The notes under the pieces: generated by a model | Databases searched by the model: none | What the model saw: only the letters and a program-made list of their open reading frames with translations | Told to the model about the DNA's origin: nothing | Translations under genes and position numbers: made by a program | In this document: positions 15,701-59,510 of the stretch, in pieces | Numbering within the stretch: position 1 is the first letter of the stretch | Layout: every line of letters begins with the position of its first letter | NCBI RefSeq assembly: GCF_037975245.1 | Contig: NC_092573.1 | Coordinates: 24,891,265-24,955,264 of the forward strand | DNA: 64,000 bases | Direction of reading: 5' to 3' | DNA from: Apostichopus japonicus | Taxonomy: Eukaryota; Echinodermata; Holothuroidea; Aspidochirotida; Stichopodidae

Positions 15701-16136
15701 TTCTTTTCTTTTTTGTATCATTGTAGAGTCAGGTGTTTCAGTGGGAGCCACAACCTCGAATGATGCAAGTACAGATGCAGCAGTCACTGATGCAAGTAAC
15801 ACAGTATCTTTGGGGGTGACATCTCATGTTCCAACAGAAGAAGATGACACACAAACAGATAACACACAAGCAGATAACACACAAGCAGATAACACACAAG
15901 CAGATAACACAGGAACACAAGCAGAGGGAGGTTCCACTGAAACAATGACAGATGGGGGAGGACAAGATCCTGTCTCAACAGAAGCTGCTGAAGCTCACTC
16001 GACTGCTGCTGCTGGAGGTGATCCAAAACACAATACAACAAAGCCTACAAGTGGTGTTACTGTCAGTATTGTAACATTTTATGGGCATTGGCTAGGCTTA
16101 GTCATTTTTACCATTCTTATGGGAAGGTATATTTAG
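12790..16136 (+). CDS. Small secreted mucin-like, membrane- or GPI-anchored protein
   Basis: Two coding exons, 12790-12907 and 15727-16136, joined across a 2.8-kb intron (donor TCTG|GTAAGT, acceptor TTGTAG|AG), giving 175 aa. The chosen start, MGNIWKT, begins a typical signal peptide (hydrophobic core LIMICVLSSL, likely cleavage near CFAQ|STV); an in-frame ATG at 12643 lies before an AG acceptor at 12746-12747 and is less likely. The mature chain is rich in Thr, Ser, Asp, Gln and Ala, with four tandem five-residue units of the TQADN type (15-bp DNA repeats, about 15846-15912). One N-glycosylation sequon (NTT) lies near the C terminus. The chain ends in a hydrophobic segment (VSIVTF...GLVIFTILMG) with only a few residues after it, as in GPI signals or short single-pass proteins. 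No cysteine remains after the signal peptide. I do not recognise an orthologue; a role in cell-surface or mucus coating is only a guess. Confidence 0.72.
13208..14323. repeat. Long imperfect inverted repeat inside the mucin-like gene intron
   Basis: The stretch 13208-13340 is reverse-complementary, with mismatches, to 14126-14323. Shared words include CTATAGACTCTATCCCAT with its reverse complement, and ATTTCTCAGCAATTAAA with TTTAATTGCTGAGAAAT. The right arm carries an extra insertion of about 55 nt. The arms are separated by about 785 bp. It may be a non-autonomous foldback element; no target duplication was identified. The open frames within it (13460-13771) look accidental. Confidence 0.75.
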
Positions 16137-29851: not shown

Positions 29852-30125
29852 CTAGCATATTTTGACATCCCTGGTGGTTACATCCCTTCTCTAGCTTTAT
29901 GTATGCATGGTAACTAGCTTCTGTGAAAATGTCTTGTATCCTTGAGATGCATATTTTGACATCCCTGGTGGTTACATCCCTTCTCTAGCTTTATCTATGC
30001 ATGGTAACTAGCTTCTGTGGACATGTCTTGTTCCCTTGAGATGCATACTTTGATATCCCTGGTGGTGAATTCCTTATTTGAGCTTACCTAGGCATGGTAA
30101 CTAGCTTCTGTGGATATGTCCTGTT
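29852..30125. repeat. Three-copy 94-bp repeat made from the MFS stop-codon region
   Basis: Three tandem copies of about 94 bp share GACATCCCTGGTGGTTACAT- and GCATGGTAACTAGCTTCTGT-type words. The rightmost copy includes the last codons and stop of the MFS transporter; the other two lie in the 3' UTR and, read on the minus strand in the same frame, still encode close versions of the tail (QDMSTEASYHA plus stop in the middle copy). Confidence 0.85.
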
Positions 30126-33100
30126 CCATATCACTTGTCTCATAAGACATGACAATGGCCTCATCGGACGGAGGTTCCTCATTTTTCATCAGATATCCCA
30201 GAATTGCAAAGAAAACTGCGGACACAATGTAACTGAATGTAACCACAATGCTGAGGGATTGACCGACACCGCGGTCACAATAGCTCCACTCTGGAGAGGC
30301 ATTCATGATAACAGGAACCTGTAAACAAAGTAAAAACAAAGCCAAAAATAAAAATGATATAGCCATATTTTTGAACAATAGTTAATGTTACTAAGAATAC
30401 TTAATTAAGGATTTGTAAATAGACATGCCTATTTTTCATGTGTCCTATACAGTGCTCGATACATACCAGCCTGAGTTGAATATCTTCTTAAATAATTAAT
30501 ATCTGATGAAATAGGCTGAGCAAATGCTTCTCTTTTTCGTCTTGTTAATTTCTTCTCAGTTAACAGGCAATTATAGAAATCTGATGAATGGACTATAATT
30601 TATGTTAAATTTTGCTATCAACTATTACTTCATTATTTGTAAACAAACTTAACTTAGTCACGCTAACTGACCTCCACAGTTATGACATTTGTAGAATATG
30701 AAAAAAAATTGAAAAATTGATCAAAATCCAATAAAAAAATTAAAAAATGAGACGTACCAGGATTGGGCCGATGCAACCACCGATAATGGTGTAGACTGTA
30801 ATATAAATTGCTGTTGCTTGTGTTCTGATGCTTGGGGAAAACAAATCCTGTAAAATGAAAACAACTGACCTTTTAATCTTCAATATGGTTATGAATAAGA
30901 AGATTGGTAAAAGTCTTAACATTGCAGCTTTGTCGTTTTGAGTTCAATTCAGTAAAACAGTGACAATAAAATAGACTTAGTATCATTGTATACAACACTC
31001 TTATACTTTACACTTTCTTCAAACATTTCATCAGCAGATAATTCTGTAAAATCTGAAAAAAGTGGGAAATCTGTAAAAAAGGGGGGGAAGAAAGCCCTTA
31101 GAAAGGTCAAACCTCATTTTGCTTGACACTTTTTTAGATAGATGGAACTTTTCCTTTATAAATGTGTATTATGATAAATTTGCTTTCCTCTTATCTCATC
31201 TTATTTGGTAAACTATCTCTCACATCTACAGTATGTATGCATTTTCACAATCTTGCCTAGGTTTCAGTTTTTTACTTTACCTGTACGATGGCTGATGCCA
31301 CTCCCAACCACGTCTCTGCTGCCAGGTAAGCCAAGAATAACATTGAATAAGACACTCTAGGATCATGCACCAGTAGTGCAGCAACTGTAAATGGTATTGC
31401 TAACAGTTGAGTAATTGTGATGATGTAAGCCTTGGCTGGTCTATGATCTTCTGAACACCTAAATAGTATTAAAAAAAACAACACTGGTAACTTTAACTGA
31501 TAACTTTGTCTATCAAAAAATAAAGAATCACATTCACAGACTTTTTTACATTTTCTACCATTTTAATGAAATATTGAAAACAAAAAGCAACGGTCAATTA
31601 ATTTTTAGAAATGAACGTGACAGGACAGCTTCATTAAAAACATTTCTTACAAGATTTTATCTGAATATACTGTTGTTTTCTAAAATCTAGAAACTATCCA
31701 TTTACTTAGTTAGAAGGAGGGGAGCAGAAAGCACTCAATTTTTTTTTTAGATCAATCACTCATGAATTTACTACTGAGTCTAGTTACATTTTCAAGAACA
31801 TTCATGGGCAGGGCATTTAAACAGTGAGAGTCCCATATATACTAATAATCATTGAGCCAATTGTCCGTTGAAGCATCACTATTGTCACCATCAATGGTTA
31901 TGTTTCATGAATGCAACATCTTTATGTAGACCACTTGATGAATACATATCATGCTATATAGCTGCATTTATATGCAATGCATAGTACAAAGTACATCTGG
32001 GCTGCTGTAATGCACTTTTGCTTGAAGCATGGGCATAAGCCTATTCTATACTGCGCACTACCTTTCGTTCAGATAACAAATGTCAGAAGTGACTCATTAC
32101 TTTTAAAATTGGCAAACCCTCCAATCACACCCTACCTCCCCCCTCCCCCTCAAAAATCAACTAGTTTTCCTGTGAAATGTAAAGACTACATGAAATAGTG
32201 TCACTTTCCCTGCAAACTGAAACAGTGAAAAGAATAGTTGATTCCCTAACCCCATATTTGCAAAATATGCGAAAGAAAAAAAGTTACTTTATTTACTTGT
32301 CAGCTAAATATCCAGCAACCAAGGAACTCATCCCACCTCCAAGAAAGACAATAATAGCTAAGATAAAACCAAATTGTCTAGATGGCAACATAAGCACCCT
32401 TGCATAGTAGGTGGCCAGCCAAGCTCCCAAGGCATAACCTCCAATGGCTCTTATTCCAGCAGCAATACAGAGCACCAAGAAAGGCTTGCAGGTCTTCAGA
32501 CGAAACAATGTTTCCTGTAAAATACAAATTGGGAGGTAAATATGTTTACTGGATATAGGCTGTAATGTAGTCGAATGCAGTAGTAAAACAAGGGGTTGAG
32601 GTGAGTGAGTGAAGGGGAGGGACAAAATTTAAAATGTAAAACGAAAAGAAAAAGGAAAGAAAAACAGTCAAAAATATTTGTGGGAGGCAATATGTTCGGC
32701 AGTTAACTTTATGGTTGTGTTCTTTACTTCTTCGGAGCGGCTTATTGGTTGTAACCACATATTTATGTAAGTTAACATTGAGGAGTGTTCAAGTTCAGAT
32801 ATGTATCGATATGCGCAAATTGATCAGATTCGCAAACTTACGACCCAAATACAAATCTGTTTGTAATTTGAGACTATGTTAAAACTGCAAGTGATGGCAT
32901 TTGCTGCTAATTTCTATTCATTTCCAAAGTACACAAAACTATCAGGTGTTTCTATTATTATTTTTTTATATTTATTAACTTTATGACCTTTATCATCACA
33001 TGCACTTAACAAGTTACATATCATCTGGACTACAATGACTAGTTTGAAAATGCCTCACTGGGCGTTGACAGGAGGGTTATCTATTCTTAACATATATAAA

Positions 33101-36100
33101 TTTGCTCAGACTCAGAAATATTCAAAATAACAATAACTCCATGTATAAACGAAGCATTTTTTTTTCTTGTGATATTTATATGAAAGTGCCTGACATACAA
33201 AATATTTAGTGGCAAGATACTGTTATACTAACCTTCAGAGTATAAGTTTTACCAAACAAAGGTGAAATTGTGGCCCGCTGAGGTTCATGAAGAGTAAAAA
33301 GAGCTAAGAGGATACAGACAGCCGATGTAATTGCTAATGAACCAAACGCCCATCTCCAACAAAATTCTGTAGTTATTGCACTGAGAGCATAGCCAGCTGC
33401 TCCACCTGTACAGAAATGAACACAATCGTTACATGCATGCACCAGTATCACAGGCCCGACATGCATAGACAACTGGGGAGGGGGAGGGAGGGGGAGGGAA
33501 GGGGAGGGAAGGGGAGGGAAGGGGATGGAAGGGGAGAGAACAAAGAGTGGTCACCCTGTACCCCTCCCCCCCCCCTTCACCATATATGACTTCAAGTTGA
33601 CGTAGACCTGCATAATTTGCATTTGGCCCACATCACTACAAACATGGAACATTCTAATATCAGACCAGTGCACTGGTTACATTGACAGAGCAGCAAACAG
33701 AGTTATTGATCCTTACCAACATAAACACCAATGTGATAGAAAGAAAGCGCTTTGCTCCTATCAATGGAATCAAAGTAGTCAGCAATCAAAGCTATAGCAG
33801 CAGGGTTGCAGATAGCCTGTGGAGATATGAATTATGATATGAAAGAAATATTTAGGTTCAAAAATCAAAGTTGTAGAAGCAGGGTTGGAGACAGCCTGTG
33901 GAGATATGAATTATGATGTGAAAGAAATATTTAGATTCAAAAATCAAAGTTGTAGAAGCAGGGTTGGAGACAGCCTGTGGAGATATGAATTATGATATGA
34001 AAGAAATATTTAGGTTCAAAAATCAAAGTTGTAGAAGCAGGGTTGGAGACAGCCTGTGGAGATATGAATTATGATGTGAAAGAAATATTTAGATTCAAAA
34101 ATCAAAAGTTGTAGAAACAGTGTTGAAGACAGCCTGTGGAGATATGAATTATGATATGAAAGAAATATTTAGGTTCAATATCAAAGTTGTAGGGATTTCA
34201 CTACCAAAATACATGACAATGTTATACTTCAACATTATGTTTAAGTTTTATATTGTAAAAAAAATACTGTAAAACTTTGAAACAAATTCTACAGTTTGTA
34301 GAGAGGTTTGTAGTGTTCAGACTTACTGTTCCGACACCGAGACCAATCCTGGCAAGAAGGAGCATCAGATAGGTGGTAGATAAAGTAGTGAGAAGCACCA
34401 TCAAGCCCGTCAGGAGTAAACCCAAGAGGAAGACTCGTACCCTAGATGTAGCATCTGCTAGTCTGGCAAATGGAATGCTTGCAATAGAATAAACCAGAGT
34501 GAAGGCAGGTCCAGTCAATATACCTTGCTGTAGAAATAACAAGAAAGCAAAATAGTTTAGAAGATGTTACCAAAGTCATCAAAACAAAACTTTGAACATC
34601 AGCAGAAAAACTATAACAAGACAGTGAATTATGTACAGCAAAGAGATTCATTAGAAATGTTAGGATCATACAGTAAACTACAGTAAAGTGTTTATTATTT
34701 TTGTCATATTGGCATTCCAAAGAACTTCCCCCGGAATGGTCCAGAACTTTCTACAACTTTTACTCACTGTACAGTATGTTGCTGAATAACTCGTTTGTAA
34801 ATCGTTCAACATCCAGAACAAAGCTGAACAGGCACAAATGCTTGGATCTTCATGCAAGTGAGAGACCGTCAGAACTCGGGGTTGCTGTTCCTGTGCTCAG
34901 AAGCCCTACGTAACCTATAATTTGCTCCGTTGGCAGAATATTAAACTACTGTCTAGCATACATTGTACTTGTTCAAGGGTATTAAGACTTGTGCATAAAG
35001 AAACGTCTCATGCAGGTTATCTGACCTAGTTTCGAATGAGGTGTAACAGAAGTGTTAGACACCACCAACGATCCCAGAAAATACACACACAGCTTGCTAC
35101 CGTCAGTAATTAGACACTAGTGTACAGTCAGTACATACAGCTGCGGTAAAAACCCACAGCACAGTGTACAAACCATACAGCGATGGACATCTCAGGTCCA
35201 GATAAAGATAACAAGGTGTCACGTTTCATTACTGTCTGCATTTTGTAGCGACAAGCAGAAAAATTCACTTGCAAGCAACGGAAAGTTAACTTTTTCAGAG
35301 CTTGGCACACGGTTTGGGGCGAGTCTTCAATGCCTTTCAGCATGAGCCTCATTTCTCCCTCACCCATACTGTACGAGCTTAGTCATCCTACTACACATAA
35401 CACATTAATGTAAACTGTACCTGAGTATCACTGAAATTTATGCAATTTCCCGGCTTGCACAATCCTTCATTAGCATAGTTCTCAGTTACCCCAGTTCCAG
35501 AGACGAATTTGAGTTCCTGTCGGTACTGTTCTGAGAAAGATAAAGGGCTTCTGTTTTCAGCCCTTCTACTATCTTCTCTGATAACGTTCTCTGAAGAACC
35601 ATAGAAGTGTTGGGAGCTGCTTATTGATGTTGCTGTCTGTGTAGTGGTGACTAAATTTGCTACTTCGCAAGAGTCATTTAAGTGTGAGTAACACCTCAAC
35701 CCTGTGAATGTAAAACATAACATAAGCACACGGTTGTTACATTCATTTATCTCAGGTTAGTTGACAAACATGCGTCCCTTCTCAAAAGATTCACTCCTAA
35801 AAGTGGTGCAAATGCTGTCTTCATATCCTATGAGGTACTTCTCCTCAATAACAAGGTTACAAAGAGTTCAGTTTCAGTTCATGACAATTTAATAAGCCCC
35901 ATTTCCAGTATGCAAAGTAGGTTTTGGCTAGAAATTTCTGCTTCCAGAGCATCATAGGCTTAGACTATGTACTGATGCATGTAAGATCTATGGTAAAAGA
36001 ATTTCTTTGACTTTTAAAAATTTGCTACAATATTCCTGCAACATGCTAACACCAGTCATTGTGCTTAAGTGTAATTTTTTTCCAAACAGCTGGTTTAAAG

Positions 36101-36969
36101 TGAGTAATTCTACTTATGCTAATGGAAATTAACTCATATACATTGTTACTGATAATGATCCATTAGAACTTTTCTTGTTAAAAACAGGTATTTAAATCGA
36201 TTCAATACAACTTGTTAAAAACAGGCATTTAAATCGATTCAATACAACTTGGCAAAGCAAAGTTATTCAGGCTCTCACAAGTCAAGCAATGGGTTGCTTA
36301 GTCCTTGAACATGCTGGACTATATAAGATAATTCCTTCATTGCAAATTTGTTCAAGCATTTTCATTCCTGACTTAAGTCAATCTGTTCAAAGTGTTTGAA
36401 ATGTTGTTGGTTACATTTAGCAACCTACAACGTAAAGGCCCACTGTATTAAGGTCATTTAATTATTTTAGTTAATTCACTTTAAGTTGATTTCTGAAAGT
36501 TGTGGCAGATTCAAGGTACCAACAAACCTAAGGAACCTCAGTAGACTCATAATTTTCAAATATCAAAATATGATACTTTTAATATATCAATTAAACCTGA
36601 AATTAATCATCATGGAAATTGAAATAAAACTAAAGGGAACTTTTGACAAGTAGTAAAACAGATAAGTATGGGATATATTAATCTCTATTGACATGCTTTA
36701 CAAAACAGAGAACGCTAGTATGAGGACAGCTTTCTTGAGATTATAATGATGAGAGTTGGTTATGTGATTCAATGTGTCCACAATATGATGCATACGTACA
36801 CACCTGATGGTATCAATACTGCCAACGCTTGCTGATCGGCTTGAGTCAAAACAAAAGCAAGAAATAAAACAAGCAGACAAATCACAGATCTTCTATAGTC
36901 AGAGCGTCTGCTCTTAGGAAAAAGACTCTGGGTTTCATCCACAGACTGCTCTAGATATGGATTATCCAT
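30088..36969 (-). CDS. Major facilitator superfamily transporter, spinster-like, 9 coding exons
   Basis: Predicted 12-helix transporter, 545 aa. Coding exons on the minus strand are 36969-36804, 35701-35421, 34527-34327, 33816-33717, 33405-33233, 32514-32297, 31458-31281, 30847-30758 and 30318-30088; all junctions are GT/AG and the lengths sum to 546 codons including stop. The first helix (ICLLVLFLAFVLTQADQQAL) is followed by a long loop of about 95 residues carrying three N-glycosylation sequons (NDS, NRS, NFS) and four Cys, so it is probably luminal or extracellular. Motif A-type sequence ARLADATSRVRV follows helix 2, ARIGLGVGTA lies in helix 4, and a second motif A-like GYLADK is in the C-terminal half. 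The cytosolic tail is acidic (EEPPSDEAIVMSYETSDMEQD). Spinster-type transporters move lipids such as lysophospholipids or sphingosine-1-phosphate, but the substrate here cannot be read from the sequence, and another MFS branch is possible. Tandem repeats derived from exon 4 and from the stop-codon region lie in and next to the gene. Confidence 0.88.
33474..33541. repeat. Purine-only GGGAGGGAAG tract (G4/triplex-prone)
   Basis: About 65 bp of G and A only, with more than ten runs of three or more G (GGGGAGGGAAG units). It lies in the MFS intron between coding exons 4 and 5, on the strand opposite to transcription. Such tracts can form G-quadruplexes or triplex DNA. Confidence 0.85.
33784..34195. 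repeat. 79-bp tandem repeat containing the exon 4 splice acceptor
   Basis: Units of 79 bp start near 33784, 33863, 33942, 34021 and 34100, with a partial sixth near 34175. The first unit holds the true start of MFS coding exon 4 (acceptor ending CTCCACAG at 33817). The others repeat the acceptor and the first 30 or so coding bases with changes, and lie in the upstream intron. Units alternate between ATGATATGA and ATGATGTGA variants, hinting at a two-unit duplication step. Confidence 0.9.
36178..36252. repeat. 39-bp tandem duplication
   Basis: The unit GTTAAAAACAGG(T/C)ATTTAAAT followed by CGATTCAATACAACTT occurs twice in a row, differing at one base, within the first MFS intron. Confidence 0.85.
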
Positions 36970-39315: not shown

Positions 39316-39451
39316 CTGACCTATATAGGTCAGTTAAACTTGAAGTAGCTGATTGTGTAACGTTGCCCACTGAATATATGCAATAACAGCTATATAGCTG
39401 TTATTGCATATATGCAGTGGGCAACGTTACACAATCAGCTACTTCAAGTTT
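39316..39451. repeat. 116-bp near-perfect palindrome plus an 18-bp palindrome
   Basis: 39336-39451 is an inverted repeat with 58-bp arms, one mismatch and no spacer, centred on CAGCTATATAGCTG. Outer arms begin AAACTTGAAGTAGCTGATTG. Immediately to its left, 39316-39333 is a perfect 18-bp palindrome (CTGACCTATATAGGTCAG). As RNA it would form a very long hairpin; as DNA it could extrude a cruciform. It lies about 100 bp left of the 24-bp array. Confidence 0.95.
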
Positions 39452-39555
39452 GTTTAGTTCATCTTGTTTTCTCTTTCTATCTCATCTCCCTGCATGTGAT
39501 GTATATGCAATAGGGACATGTCTCATCATTACCTGACATTACATGACATGTAATG

Positions 39556-40233
39556 TATAGGGACATGTGGTAATGTATAGGGAGATGAGACATGTAATGT
39601 ATAGGGAGATGAGACATGTAATGTATAGGGAGATGAGACATGTCATGTATAGGGAGATGAGACATGTAATGTATAGGGAGATGAGACATGTCATGTATTG
39701 GGAGATGAGACATATAATGTATAGGGAGATGAGACATGTAATGTATAGGGAGATGAGACATGTCATGTATAGGGAGATGAGACATGTCATGTATTGGGAG
39801 ATGAGACATATAATGTATTGGGAGATGAGACATGTAATGTATAGGGAGATGAGACATGTCATGTATAGGGAGATGAGACATGTCATGTATTGGGAGATGA
39901 GACATATAATGTATTGGGAGATGAGACATGTAATGTATAGGGAGATGAGACATGTAATGTATAGGGAGATGAGACATGTAATGTATAGGGAGATGAGACA
40001 TGTAATGTATAGGGCGATGAGACATGTCATGTATAGGGAGATGAGACATGTCATGTATAGGGAGATGAGACATATAATGTATTGGGAGATGAGACATGTA
40101 ATGTATAGGGAGATGAGACATGTCATGTATAGGGAGATGAGACATGTCATGTATAGGGAGATGAGACATGTAATGTATAGGGAGATGAGACATGTCATGT
40201 ATAGGGAGATGAGACATGTCATGTATAGGGAGA
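39556..40233. repeat. 24-bp satellite array, about 27 units, with four-unit higher-order pattern
   Basis: The unit is GGGAGATGAGACATGTAATG followed by TATA, with variants at three positions (ATGTA, ATGTC or ATATA; then TATA or TATT). Coding units A (GTAAT..TATA), C (GTCAT..TATA), C' (GTCAT..TATT) and T (ATAAT..TATT), the order A-C-C'-T appears twice exactly and several more times approximately, that is a 96-bp higher-order repeat. Because 24 is a multiple of three and the unit lacks stops in several frames, long open frames of 225-260 codons appear on both strands; they are not genes. Confidence 0.96.
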
Positions 40234-42582
40234 TGCCTGTGTGATTGGCGACGTCATATGTCAAATACCCCAAAACTGTTTTTAGCCATTTTCTGTTTGT
40301 CAGTAGGTTGGGAAAAGTCATTAAACCACAAGATATGTAGAGAATAATGTGACAAATATTAGAATATTACTTATAGTTGTTAAAGGTCTAGGTCAAAAGC
40401 CAATGTAGATCAATTCCGTCGTAGAAGAGATGAGATTGCCATCTTGTTGTTTTTTTTATGTTTTTTTTTTTGTGTGGGCTTCAAATGAAGATGTTTTCTT
40501 AATCTTTTATGATATCAACTAACGGAAACGTGAAAAGATAAAACAAACGTGACAATATTGATTAAATTGCGAGTAAAACTAACATCTCCTTTGACTGGTT
40601 ATACTTTGGTCTTTATTTAAATCGTTTTCATTTTAAACAATCGTTTGCCACGACAAAGAAGAATCTCATCCCACCTCTTTACAATACAATCACATCCCGT
40701 CATTTTATCGACAGAGGGCTTGGACAGAAATTATATTGAATGAACTGTCATCTCAAGGATCAATACTGTGAAACTTTCAAATTGATTTGGTCACCTCCAA
40801 CCACTTCGCAAAGTCAGTTAATTCCACATTTGTATAAACTGCCCAGTGCATGACAGACCTTTTACAGTAACGGTGTTGTGCGGCAATTGTTCATCAATTG
40901 AATTTAAAGGAAAACTTTGATTTGTAATGAAAGCAACGAATTTAATGCACCAGTGAAACTAATGACAACTCTTGTCGAGTTGTGTGTTTTGTTAACTGCG
41001 AAATCAATAGAGATAACTCATGATGTTTGGAAAGCCTATTGTGATTGCTCAATGAGAACGAAAAACATTTGTGAAGATGAATCTTTTGTACTCCTAACTT
41101 GGGTTATTGGTGCATTTACTACCATGAAACCGATCAAGTGATCACCGAGTGAAATAAATTTTCTTCCATTTTCTCCATTTGTGTACCGGGGGGGGGGGGG
41201 GGACAAGGAAGTTACATTCCTCAGTATCGTTTGAAAATAACTTATCAACAGCAAAGATGCGAAGGCATTGTAGCTTTCAGCTTCCGAAACACTCATTGAT
41301 TGAACAATCTCACACTGAGCATAACTTTATTATCGGTTAGGCATAAATTTATGCATAAACCCGAAGGAATATCCCCACTTCATGAAGGAAACAACAACAT
41401 TCCCTTAACATGTATTCATTGCTTCTATGAAGCAGACCTAGTGTTTTGTCTGCTAGACTAACTTGTTCAGCCACTTTCATTGATGTGTTTCTGGTGTTTA
41501 AAGGGTCGTTTCTCAAAACTTAAAACTGTTATTTCAATACAATTTGTATACTGTTAGCAGTGGTTTGTAACTGTCTGTTATATATGAAAATTGATTTTGT
41601 GACCATTAACGTATATCCTTTACAGACAGGATAGGTAAACGTTAAAGAAAACACTGACAACATGACCTGCCTGATCAAGACCCGAGCCAGCTGTTTCGTT
41701 CAAAATTATTCGTTATTCCGATTGGGCTGACCTGTTGATATGTCATTGACGTTTTTCCCCCTCTCTTTTCATCTGGCTTAATTGTATCACAATGCAAGAA
41801 AACAAAAGGAACATCGCACCTTCAAAGAGTATCTCAAGTGGCTGGAATCTTTAAACTAATCATCTCGAAAAACAAAACATCCTTTTAACAAAGAACAAAC
41901 TTGTTTTCGTGATTTCGTCATACCCGAGATCGATAAGCAACTTTCAAGTATACCCTTGCTTAATAATCAAACACGTTGGTCCTTCACCTGACAAATACAG
42001 AAGCTACAATTTTCACACCTTGGCTCAAAATCAACATTAGTCTTTAGGTTTTCCCTTGTAGATGCTGCGCGCAAATACAGGATTAGCCCAAGCTCGGGGG
42101 TTGTAACAGTCAACCGTTAATATGCAAACATATTGTATGTACTGTGGAGTGTTTGCAACGGTATCACATAGCGGTGGCGTTTCATTTAACAAAAGTTATA
42201 AGAAGGCATCATTGATACAAGAAGTCAAAAAAAGAGAACGAGGAAATTTGCAAAGGATTGAGACCATCTTGCAACTTCCGGCGAAGATTGCTGAATAGAA
42301 ATTTACATAAAAAAAACGAAAAAAAAAAGATAAAGAATAAAATAAGTAGCACACTTCGACGAAGAGAAACTCGGTGGTCAACATTTATAACTGATAAGCA
42401 GATGTGAAGTTACGTCTAATTCTTAGAAAGGATTGGTAGGGAAGAAGAAAGTAGTATATGGGAACAAACAACTGCATCTAAGAATGATTTTAACTATAGT
42501 ATGGTAACCTTCCACCACTTTAAAATATTGTACCGTATTGTAATTGTCACCCTTTAAAGGGGCTGGCATGGAAGACAGACCA

Positions 42583-58257: not shown

Positions 58258-59415
58258 TTAACATAAGTTACAACTCTGTCTACACGATGTCCTCATGTAT
58301 AGTGGATTACGCGTACACTCTCCGTTTCTCGCCCACCACGCACAGTTGACGTTGTCGTCTGCACAGTTTGATGATGACCGTCTGCACTGCTGACAACTAA
58401 CGGGACAGTTCGGCAGCATCCAAGCAGGATTCCTGGAACACTCTCCTCTTGCAGCCCAAGCTGAACAGTTGGGATGAGTTTCTTCACAATCGGGGTTGGT
58501 TTCGTCTCCTTCCGTCTCGGTTGTATCCTCACATCCATAGTAACGATTTATTTTAAGAACATCAGTAGCGCTGAAGTCGTTTCTGTTGCCTATGGAAACT
58601 CCCGCCTGGCGAGGTACTATAGTCGGTCGTCCGTTGCGGCTGAAGGCATTCATTGGATAATGCATGATAGAGTAATAGTCATAACGGGTTTGTAAATGAT
58701 CAATGGTGTCCTGGTTATACCTGACAAAGTTGTACTCTAATCCAGACTGGATGTTTTGGTAATAAACGGTGACAAATTGATCTCTGTCGGTTCTTGTTTG
58801 TTCGTGTTGAAATCCTACAGCATGCATTAGTTCGTGCATGATAGTTCCTCTGTGAAAGTTACAGGCGCCCCCAACAGACAGTTCTTGGCGTCCTCCTCTT
58901 CGACCAACGGCCGAAAAGCAACCCTGTCTTGGTACGATGTGGACGTAATCTCTTTGTCCATTCCAAGGTGTAAACCGAATACAGGTTGTTTGATGGTAAC
59001 GGTTAATGGCCGCAATAATTCTTTGTCGAGCACCGGCGTCGAAGGAACGGTCGATGAAATACGGCACGACACCTCCTGGCCAACGTACATTACGGTTACG
59101 AACAGCATTCTGGGCAACCTGAGAAACATTGTAGTCGACTTTGATGTCGCCCTCAATCAGATAATGTTCAATTCCTGAGTCAATGTTTTGATTTTCTTTA
59201 AATATGTACTCCATACTGCCCTCCTCCTGGTTGGTACCAAAGATGCTCAGTTCGAGTGGTGTTGGCAGCTTTGAGTTAACCTCAAAACTGGGCACTTGAT
59301 TCAACTCGCCATTAACAAGATCAATCGGGTTGTCTCTGCTCAGTGGTATACAGGACGAGTAGCTCACCAGCACTATGGTTAAAATTACCGAGACGATCTT
59401 CATCTTGATGTACAA
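58258..59415 (-). CDS. Astacin-family zinc metalloprotease with two ShKT domains, intronless
   Basis: Secreted protease of 385 aa in one exon. A signal peptide (hydrophobic MKIVSVILTIVLVSYSSC) is followed by a propeptide to about residue 107, then the M12A catalytic domain (about 108-296). The zinc site HELMHAVGFQH gives His194, Glu195 (catalytic base), His198 and His204; HEQTRTDRD continues the signature, and the Met-turn SIMHY is at 249-253. Four Cys (145, 166, 185, 295) fit the two conserved disulphides. Two ShKT six-cysteine domains follow (Cys310-344 and Cys351-385), the last ending at the C terminus. ATG codons at 59415 and 59403 are both possible; the second gives a tighter signal peptide. 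The architecture resembles nematode, cnidarian and echinoderm astacins that act in matrix remodelling, hatching or prohormone processing. The specific substrate is unknown. The absence of introns in such a gene is notable. Confidence 0.95.
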   Translation of the reverse strand: MYIKMKIVSVILTIVLVSYSSCIPLSRDNPIDLVNGELNQVPSFEVNSKLPTPLELSIFGTNQEEGSMEYIFKENQNIDSGIEHYLIEGDIKVDYNVSQVAQNAVRNRNVRWPGGVVPYFIDRSFDAGARQRIIAAINRYHQTTCIRFTPWNGQRDYVHIVPRQGCFSAVGRRGGRQELSVGGACNFHRGTIMHELMHAVGFQHEQTRTDRDQFVTVYYQNIQSGLEYNFVRYNQDTIDHLQTRYDYYSIMHYPMNAFSRNGRPTIVPRQAGVSIGNRNDFSATDVLKINRYYGCEDTTETEGDETNPDCEETHPNCSAWAARGECSRNPAWMLPNCPVSCQQCRRSSSNCADDNVNCAWWARNGECTRNPLYMRTSCRQSCNLC

Positions 59416-59502
59416 CTCTCCGTTTGTTCTGTCAGTGATTGATAACGTCTTTAGTAGCTGAAGATTGATGTTTCTATGACGGTTAGTCGAGCTGTGTCTG
59501 GG

Positions 59503-59510
59503 TATTTATT
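59503..59510 (-). promoter_or_regulatory. Candidate TATA box of the astacin gene
   Basis: AATAAATA on the minus strand, 88 nt upstream of the first ATG. Transcription starting about 30 nt downstream would leave a 5' UTR of some 60 nt. Confidence 0.4.

Follow-up and report, generated by a model that had tools for sequence, protein, structure and literature searches.

The closest described counterparts of the array analysed here are the 'mirage' minisatellites of lancelets, which occur in Adh3, in the globin genes BflGb6 and BflGb9, in TnC and in PGBD5 (PMC3087553, PMC3902484; both cited from excerpts). In BflGb6 the 3' end of an intron and the 5' part of the next exon have been duplicated, with six and three units in two haplotypes and a unit identity of 81–100% (PMC3087553, PMC3902484). 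Many, not all, of the lancelet mirage copies keep splice signals, and the excerpted accounts report normal splicing as undisturbed (PMC3087553, PMC3902484). The unit lengths printed there are 10–72 bp for Adh3, 150–160 bp for BflGb6, 157 bp for BflGb9, and 60 and 108 bp for PGBD5. A human counterpart is the VNTR in intron 18 of ABCA7, whose 25-bp unit carries the exon 18 donor and is present in ~12 to ~427 copies; this repeat is polymorphic and has measured effects on splicing, mainly skipping of exon 19 (PMC5954066, in excerpt). More generally, internal tandem repeats at exon–intron boundaries can modify splicing, according to the part of PMC2812944 on which we draw.

Here we analyse a tandem array that covers an intron–exon boundary of a transporter gene of Apostichopus japonicus. 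The window, by which we mean the whole stretch of DNA that was analysed, is 64,000 nucleotides long (NCBI RefSeq assembly GCF_037975245.1, contig NC_092573.1, positions 24,891,265 to 24,955,264), and coordinates refer to it throughout. The gene and the array are placed as follows:

30088..36969, minus strand: host gene, a putative spinster-like MFS transporter with 9 coding exons and 545 amino acids in a hand-built model.
33717..33816, minus strand: exon 4, 100 nt long, entered through the true acceptor; the array takes in its first bases.
33817..34326, minus strand: intron 3, 510 nt, with GT at 34326 and AG at 33817.
33784..34192, minus strand: mirage-type minisatellite with a 79-bp unit, spanning the intron 3/exon 4 boundary (from TRF and the acceptor positions).

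The nine exons and eight GT–AG introns join into one intact 545-codon frame plus stop, in a model whose exon boundaries were picked by hand with the frame in view. The product matches Pfam MFS_1 (E 2.2e-45) in two stretches, best at residues 144–467. Among PDB sequences, 6e8j (E 2.6e-27) matches best; it is entered as 'Major facilitator family transporter', and we take it to be a bacterial spinster homologue; 9boi, a 'Protein spinster homolog 1' fusion, has E 2.6e-07 and ranks below EfpA and a putative drug transporter. Because the 6e8j alignment (residues 141–254) passes without a gap over the exon 3/exon 4 junction (...lgvgt/aicnpaaialiadyf..., with the stroke at the junction), 33816 is the acceptor that makes the conserved protein. 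Exon 2 (35421–35701) encodes ~94 residues, most of which precede residue 144, where the best MFS_1 stretch starts, and the open frame around this exon matched no Pfam family at E up to 1.

TRF describes the array with a period of 79, 5.2 copies, 93% matches and a score of 711, and its content resolves into the true acceptor unit, four further copies and a 5' stub. Read in the gene (minus) orientation, the array holds five occurrences of CTCCACAG, each leading into exon-like sequence, with exon starts at 34133 (d4), 34053 (d3), 33974 (d2), 33895 (d1) and 33816 (true), so named that the decoys are numbered away from the true site. Counted from the outer end, the spacings between acceptors are 80, 79, 79 and 79. 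The true acceptor is the innermost of the five and sits at the array edge, and the decoy units upstream of it are:

33817..33895, minus strand: decoy unit d1, with its exon-like start at 33895 and a stop at codon 39.
33896..33974, minus strand: decoy unit d2, with its exon-like start at 33974 and a stop at codon 39.
33975..34053, minus strand: decoy unit d3, with its exon-like start at 34053, adding 237 nt, and a stop at codon 39.
34054..34133, minus strand: decoy unit d4, the outermost and most diverged, 80 bp, with its exon-like start at 34133 and a stop at codon 13.

TRF and the acceptor positions together bear out the preliminary description, which had placed about five copies of a 79-bp unit over the 3' splice site and the first bases of exon 4. 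It had further held that the upstream copies keep an AG acceptor and a diverged exon start, and that the transcript meets decoy acceptors before the true one; both points agree with what we find, namely five CTCCACAG acceptors, exon-like starts that differ from the true exon, and starts at 34133, 34053, 33974 and 33895 that precede 33816 on the minus strand.

The unit draws in part on the exon. When the first 34 nt of exon 4 are compared with the array, 28 positions agree, whereas 500 dinucleotide shuffles of the array reach at most 20 (mean 16.9) and the rest of the window, searched on both strands, at most 22; part of the unit thus derives from the exon and does not resemble it by chance. 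The clearly exon-derived portion of each exon-like part comprises only about the first 20 nt, and the remainder coincides with the intron-side version of a 13-bp junction motif (see below). On the evidence of the window, we rejected a dispersed repeat or mobile element as a candidate: with unit d3 as BLAST query, the best other match there had E = 0.14.

The acceptor side of the unit is near-identical between copies. The 23-mer from −20 to +3 is identical at five of five acceptors, and over the longer stretch from −45 to −1 the d2 and d4 sequences equal the true site, with d1 and d3 differing from it at two positions (−40 and −23). In the first 20 nt of the exon-like part, d1, d2 and d3 are mutually identical and show three differences from the true exon; d4 shows five differences from the true exon and three from each of d1–d3. 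Central units are homogenised and edge units diverged, as in mirages, which with n=5 units is a weak test. Between the array's outer end and the true acceptor, intron 3 contains no AG dinucleotide besides those of the five acceptors, so that an AG scan begun in any unit reaches that unit's own acceptor. The motif yTnAy is a weak branch-point consensus, and candidates for it lie in each unit at −48 or −49, at −24 and at −12. Judged by these signals, the five acceptor modules look equally competent. Inspection by eye found no good donor in the repeat units, and the window as a whole returned no Rfam match at gathering score and no tRNA or tmRNA gene with ARAGORN. The possibility that the decoys are hidden by RNA secondary structure was also rejected, as the 641-nt fold has a z of −0.07 and is equalled or exceeded in stability by 9 of 20 shuffles.

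Use of any decoy would cut the protein short. Premature stops follow from all four, at codon 13 for d4 and at codon 39 for d3, d2 and d1, and lie 62 to 378 nt before exon 4 ends. Transcripts from all four decoys would be NMD targets under the usual distance rule. An in-frame isoform via d3 was considered and rejected: the 237 nt added are a multiple of three, yet the frame stops at codon 39. On the predicted translations, only 33816, among the five acceptors, preserves the reading frame of the conserved MFS protein. The preliminary description went on to suggest that splicing could become alternative or suppressed; this may be so, given identical 23-mers at the acceptors and decoys that lead to stops, but the lancelet mirages, a published kind to which it did not assign the array, are reported to leave normal splicing intact (PMC3087553, PMC3902484).

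The ends of the array carry two versions of the 13-bp junction motif:

34180..34192, minus strand: intron-side copy of the motif, CTACAACTTTGAT, at the outer edge of the array.
33785..33797, minus strand: exon-side copy of the motif, CTATAGCTTTGAT, at the inner edge of the array, in exon 4.

The two copies share 11 of their 13 letters. Of the four internal junctions, three (34034, 33955 and 33876) also carry the intron version, and the motif at the fourth, beside d4, has one extra T, which is why unit d4 measures 80 bp. The imperfect repeat at the array ends suggests how the array began. From the motif positions and the unit order we infer an ancestral intron 3 of ~193 nt, whose 3' splice site would have been flanked by two similar 13-bp motifs, ~60 nt upstream of it in the intron and ~20 nt into exon 4. 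Slippage or unequal exchange between the motifs would have duplicated the segment bearing the splice site, and later steps, including one with a two-unit (158-bp) block, may have brought the acceptors to five. The array is presumably unstable.

Two linked sites (−40 and −23) alternate A-B-A-B-A along the five acceptors, and the longest exact run is 135 bp at a shift of 158, compared with 61 bp at a shift of 79. The alternation and the 135-bp run support expansion by two-unit (158-bp) blocks and so lend support to the stepwise two-unit expansion proposed at the outset. Perfect alternation is one of ten possible orders of three A and two B, and unit order by itself is therefore weak evidence for block expansion. 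That the array is recent is the best reading of these data.

Minisatellites are plentiful around the gene. Seventeen distinct TRF arrays with a unit of at least 10 bp (overlapping rows merged by hand) occupy 5.0% of the window, a richness that makes a neutral origin more likely, and the array is probably neutral for the biology of the MFS gene. Two of the 17, the 79-bp array and a 94-bp array (29855–30124, 2.9 copies by TRF), overlap MFS exons, the MFS gene being the only one whose exons were mapped. The 94-bp array covers the coding end and stop codon of the same gene and repeats its last codons and stop-codon region into the 3' flank; the MFS stop, TAG, is directly followed by a donor-like GTAAGC, and the other two 94-bp copies are without GTAAGC. 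Further away, a 56-bp array (1329–2178) of ~15 copies also shows higher-order periods at 111 and 167 bp, and a 15-bp array (15834–15911) falls within an open frame coding a D/N/T/Q/A repeat, a frame in which no Pfam family was found. A 24-bp array of 29 copies (39545–40235) is open from stop to stop in three reading frames, over 227–275 codons, and is probably non-coding. Close to it is an inverted repeat (39336–39451) with directly abutting arms of 58 nt that are 98% complementary. A single long open frame at 58258–59505 encodes an astacin domain and two ShK stretches.

We read the array as a recent mirage minisatellite, with exon 4 spliced mostly at 33816 and any decoy use leaking to NMD, and give this reading a probability of roughly 0.75. 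The conserved transporter is obtained from 33816 alone of the five acceptors, so that in a working gene the functional mRNA has to come from this site. It would be chosen for lying 100 nt from the exon 4 donor, in the true exon context, and splicing to the decoys would be either rare or a source of stop-bearing transcripts targeted to NMD. With equal splice-site signals, the sequence cannot by itself tell the winning acceptor. We favour a predominance of 33816 in which the decoys are used leakily at most, less firmly than we hold the anatomy of the array, because lancelet genes of the same structure are reported to splice normally and a working gene needs 33816.

The human proximity rule points the other way. 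In the excerpted study of Carranza et al. (PMC9225289), where human splice sites are nearly equal in strength, the upstream acceptor is preferred if the intron is short, 'short' meaning less than 250 nt in human genes. The preference is significantly reduced with long introns (the long-long class), and the short-long class, with a short upstream and a long downstream intron, behaves like intron definition (PMC9225289). Intron 3 measures 193 nt from its donor to the outermost decoy d4 and intron 4 measures 311 nt, so that d4 would compete from the short-long class; on the 510 nt from donor to 33816, it would belong instead to the long-long class, with its significantly weaker upstream preference. 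By analogy with the human genes, this rule counts against predominant use of 33816 (PMC9225289), just as the change of ABCA7 splicing with VNTR length counts against a splice-neutral array (PMC5954066).

It is unlikely, if consistent with several features of the locus, that the decoys serve as poison acceptors that send a set fraction of transcripts to NMD, with the copy number tuning transporter dosage. Such a role would fit the same 23-mer at all five acceptors and the stops from four of four decoys, and d4 keeps the likely ancestral donor–acceptor distance of 193 nt, which the intron-proximity rule favours (PMC9225289). The excerpted ABCA7 report offers a parallel: one isoform from the donor-side repeat keeps a single unit and is frameshifted, PTC transcripts became more abundant when cycloheximide blocked translation, and longer VNTRs went with more skipping of exon 19; the report also puts retention of one unit at ~2%, unaffected by VNTR size, which speaks against tuning of this kind (PMC5954066). 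The identity of the units is explained by recent block duplication, and the lancelet mirages, in the excerpts cited, are reported without disturbance of splicing (PMC3087553, PMC3902484). That equal poison acceptors form a copy-number rheostat, in which they set the share of NMD and a repeat length that varies between individuals, and perhaps between cells, tunes transporter dosage, strikes us as quite unlikely.

We consider it very unlikely that this is a damaged or hypomorphic allele, in which the expansion diverts most splicing to the decoys and the haplotype makes little protein. The decoys do precede the true acceptor in the transcript and match it in sequence, and their use breaks the protein; against this, the rest of the coding sequence is intact, with its 545 codons and eight GT–AG introns and no decay yet, an absence that a recent expansion would likewise explain. 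An assembly artefact, in the form of a wrong copy number or order such as a duplicated two-unit block, is most improbable: the 135-bp exact run at a 158-bp shift is what duplication by an assembler would give, and one lancelet mirage seems aberrantly assembled in the draft genome (PMC3087553, in excerpt), but the units fall into two types and d4 departs from the rest in substitutions and an additional base, so that several of the copies have to be genuine, and the window contains no N.

Five equal 23-nt acceptors in one native intron constitute a natural test of 3' splice site choice that contrasts intron proximity with exon proximity, in which each junction is distinguishable and four lead to a stop. 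Since both junction motifs are still readable, the locus also shows how a boundary-spanning minisatellite may start.

Several known arrangements bear comparison with the recent mirage that we favour. In intron gain by tandem duplication, boundary-spanning repeats can reportedly found new introns; in the MFS array no new intron is evident, and the repeats lie inside an existing one. NAGNAG acceptors lie within a few nucleotides of each other and are chosen at the second step; like these and other close tandem acceptors, the MFS array has several 3' splice sites competing for one donor, but its acceptors stand 79–80 nt apart, each with its own upstream module. The distinction is one that the excerpted PMC9225289 itself draws, with spacings of up to 9 nt treated separately from spacings of at least 20 nt. 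The ABCA7 VNTR resembles the MFS array in that its unit holds a genuine splice site of the host gene and the extra copies are potential cryptic sites; it differs in involving the donor side with a 25-bp unit, as against the acceptor side and 79 bp here (PMC5954066, in excerpt). Searches of open-licence full text, with queries that did not name the species, brought up the lancelet mirages and ABCA7 and had no paper on this gene's array among the matches listed, which is weak evidence.

The lancelet mirages are the nearest relatives in form. They too are tandem repeats across an intron–exon boundary in an otherwise normal gene, and that of BflGb6 has the same form as the MFS array, in the excerpts on which we draw (PMC3087553, PMC3902484). 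As in mirages, the MFS unit spans the boundary, the host gene is otherwise intact and the true boundary lies at the array edge. The MFS array differs from the published cases, as excerpted, in its gene and its 79-bp unit, in the single 23-mer shared by all five acceptors, and in that every decoy reaches a stop. It is a new, unusually clean example of the mirage kind already described, which by its structure alone may be placed beside those of the lancelets.
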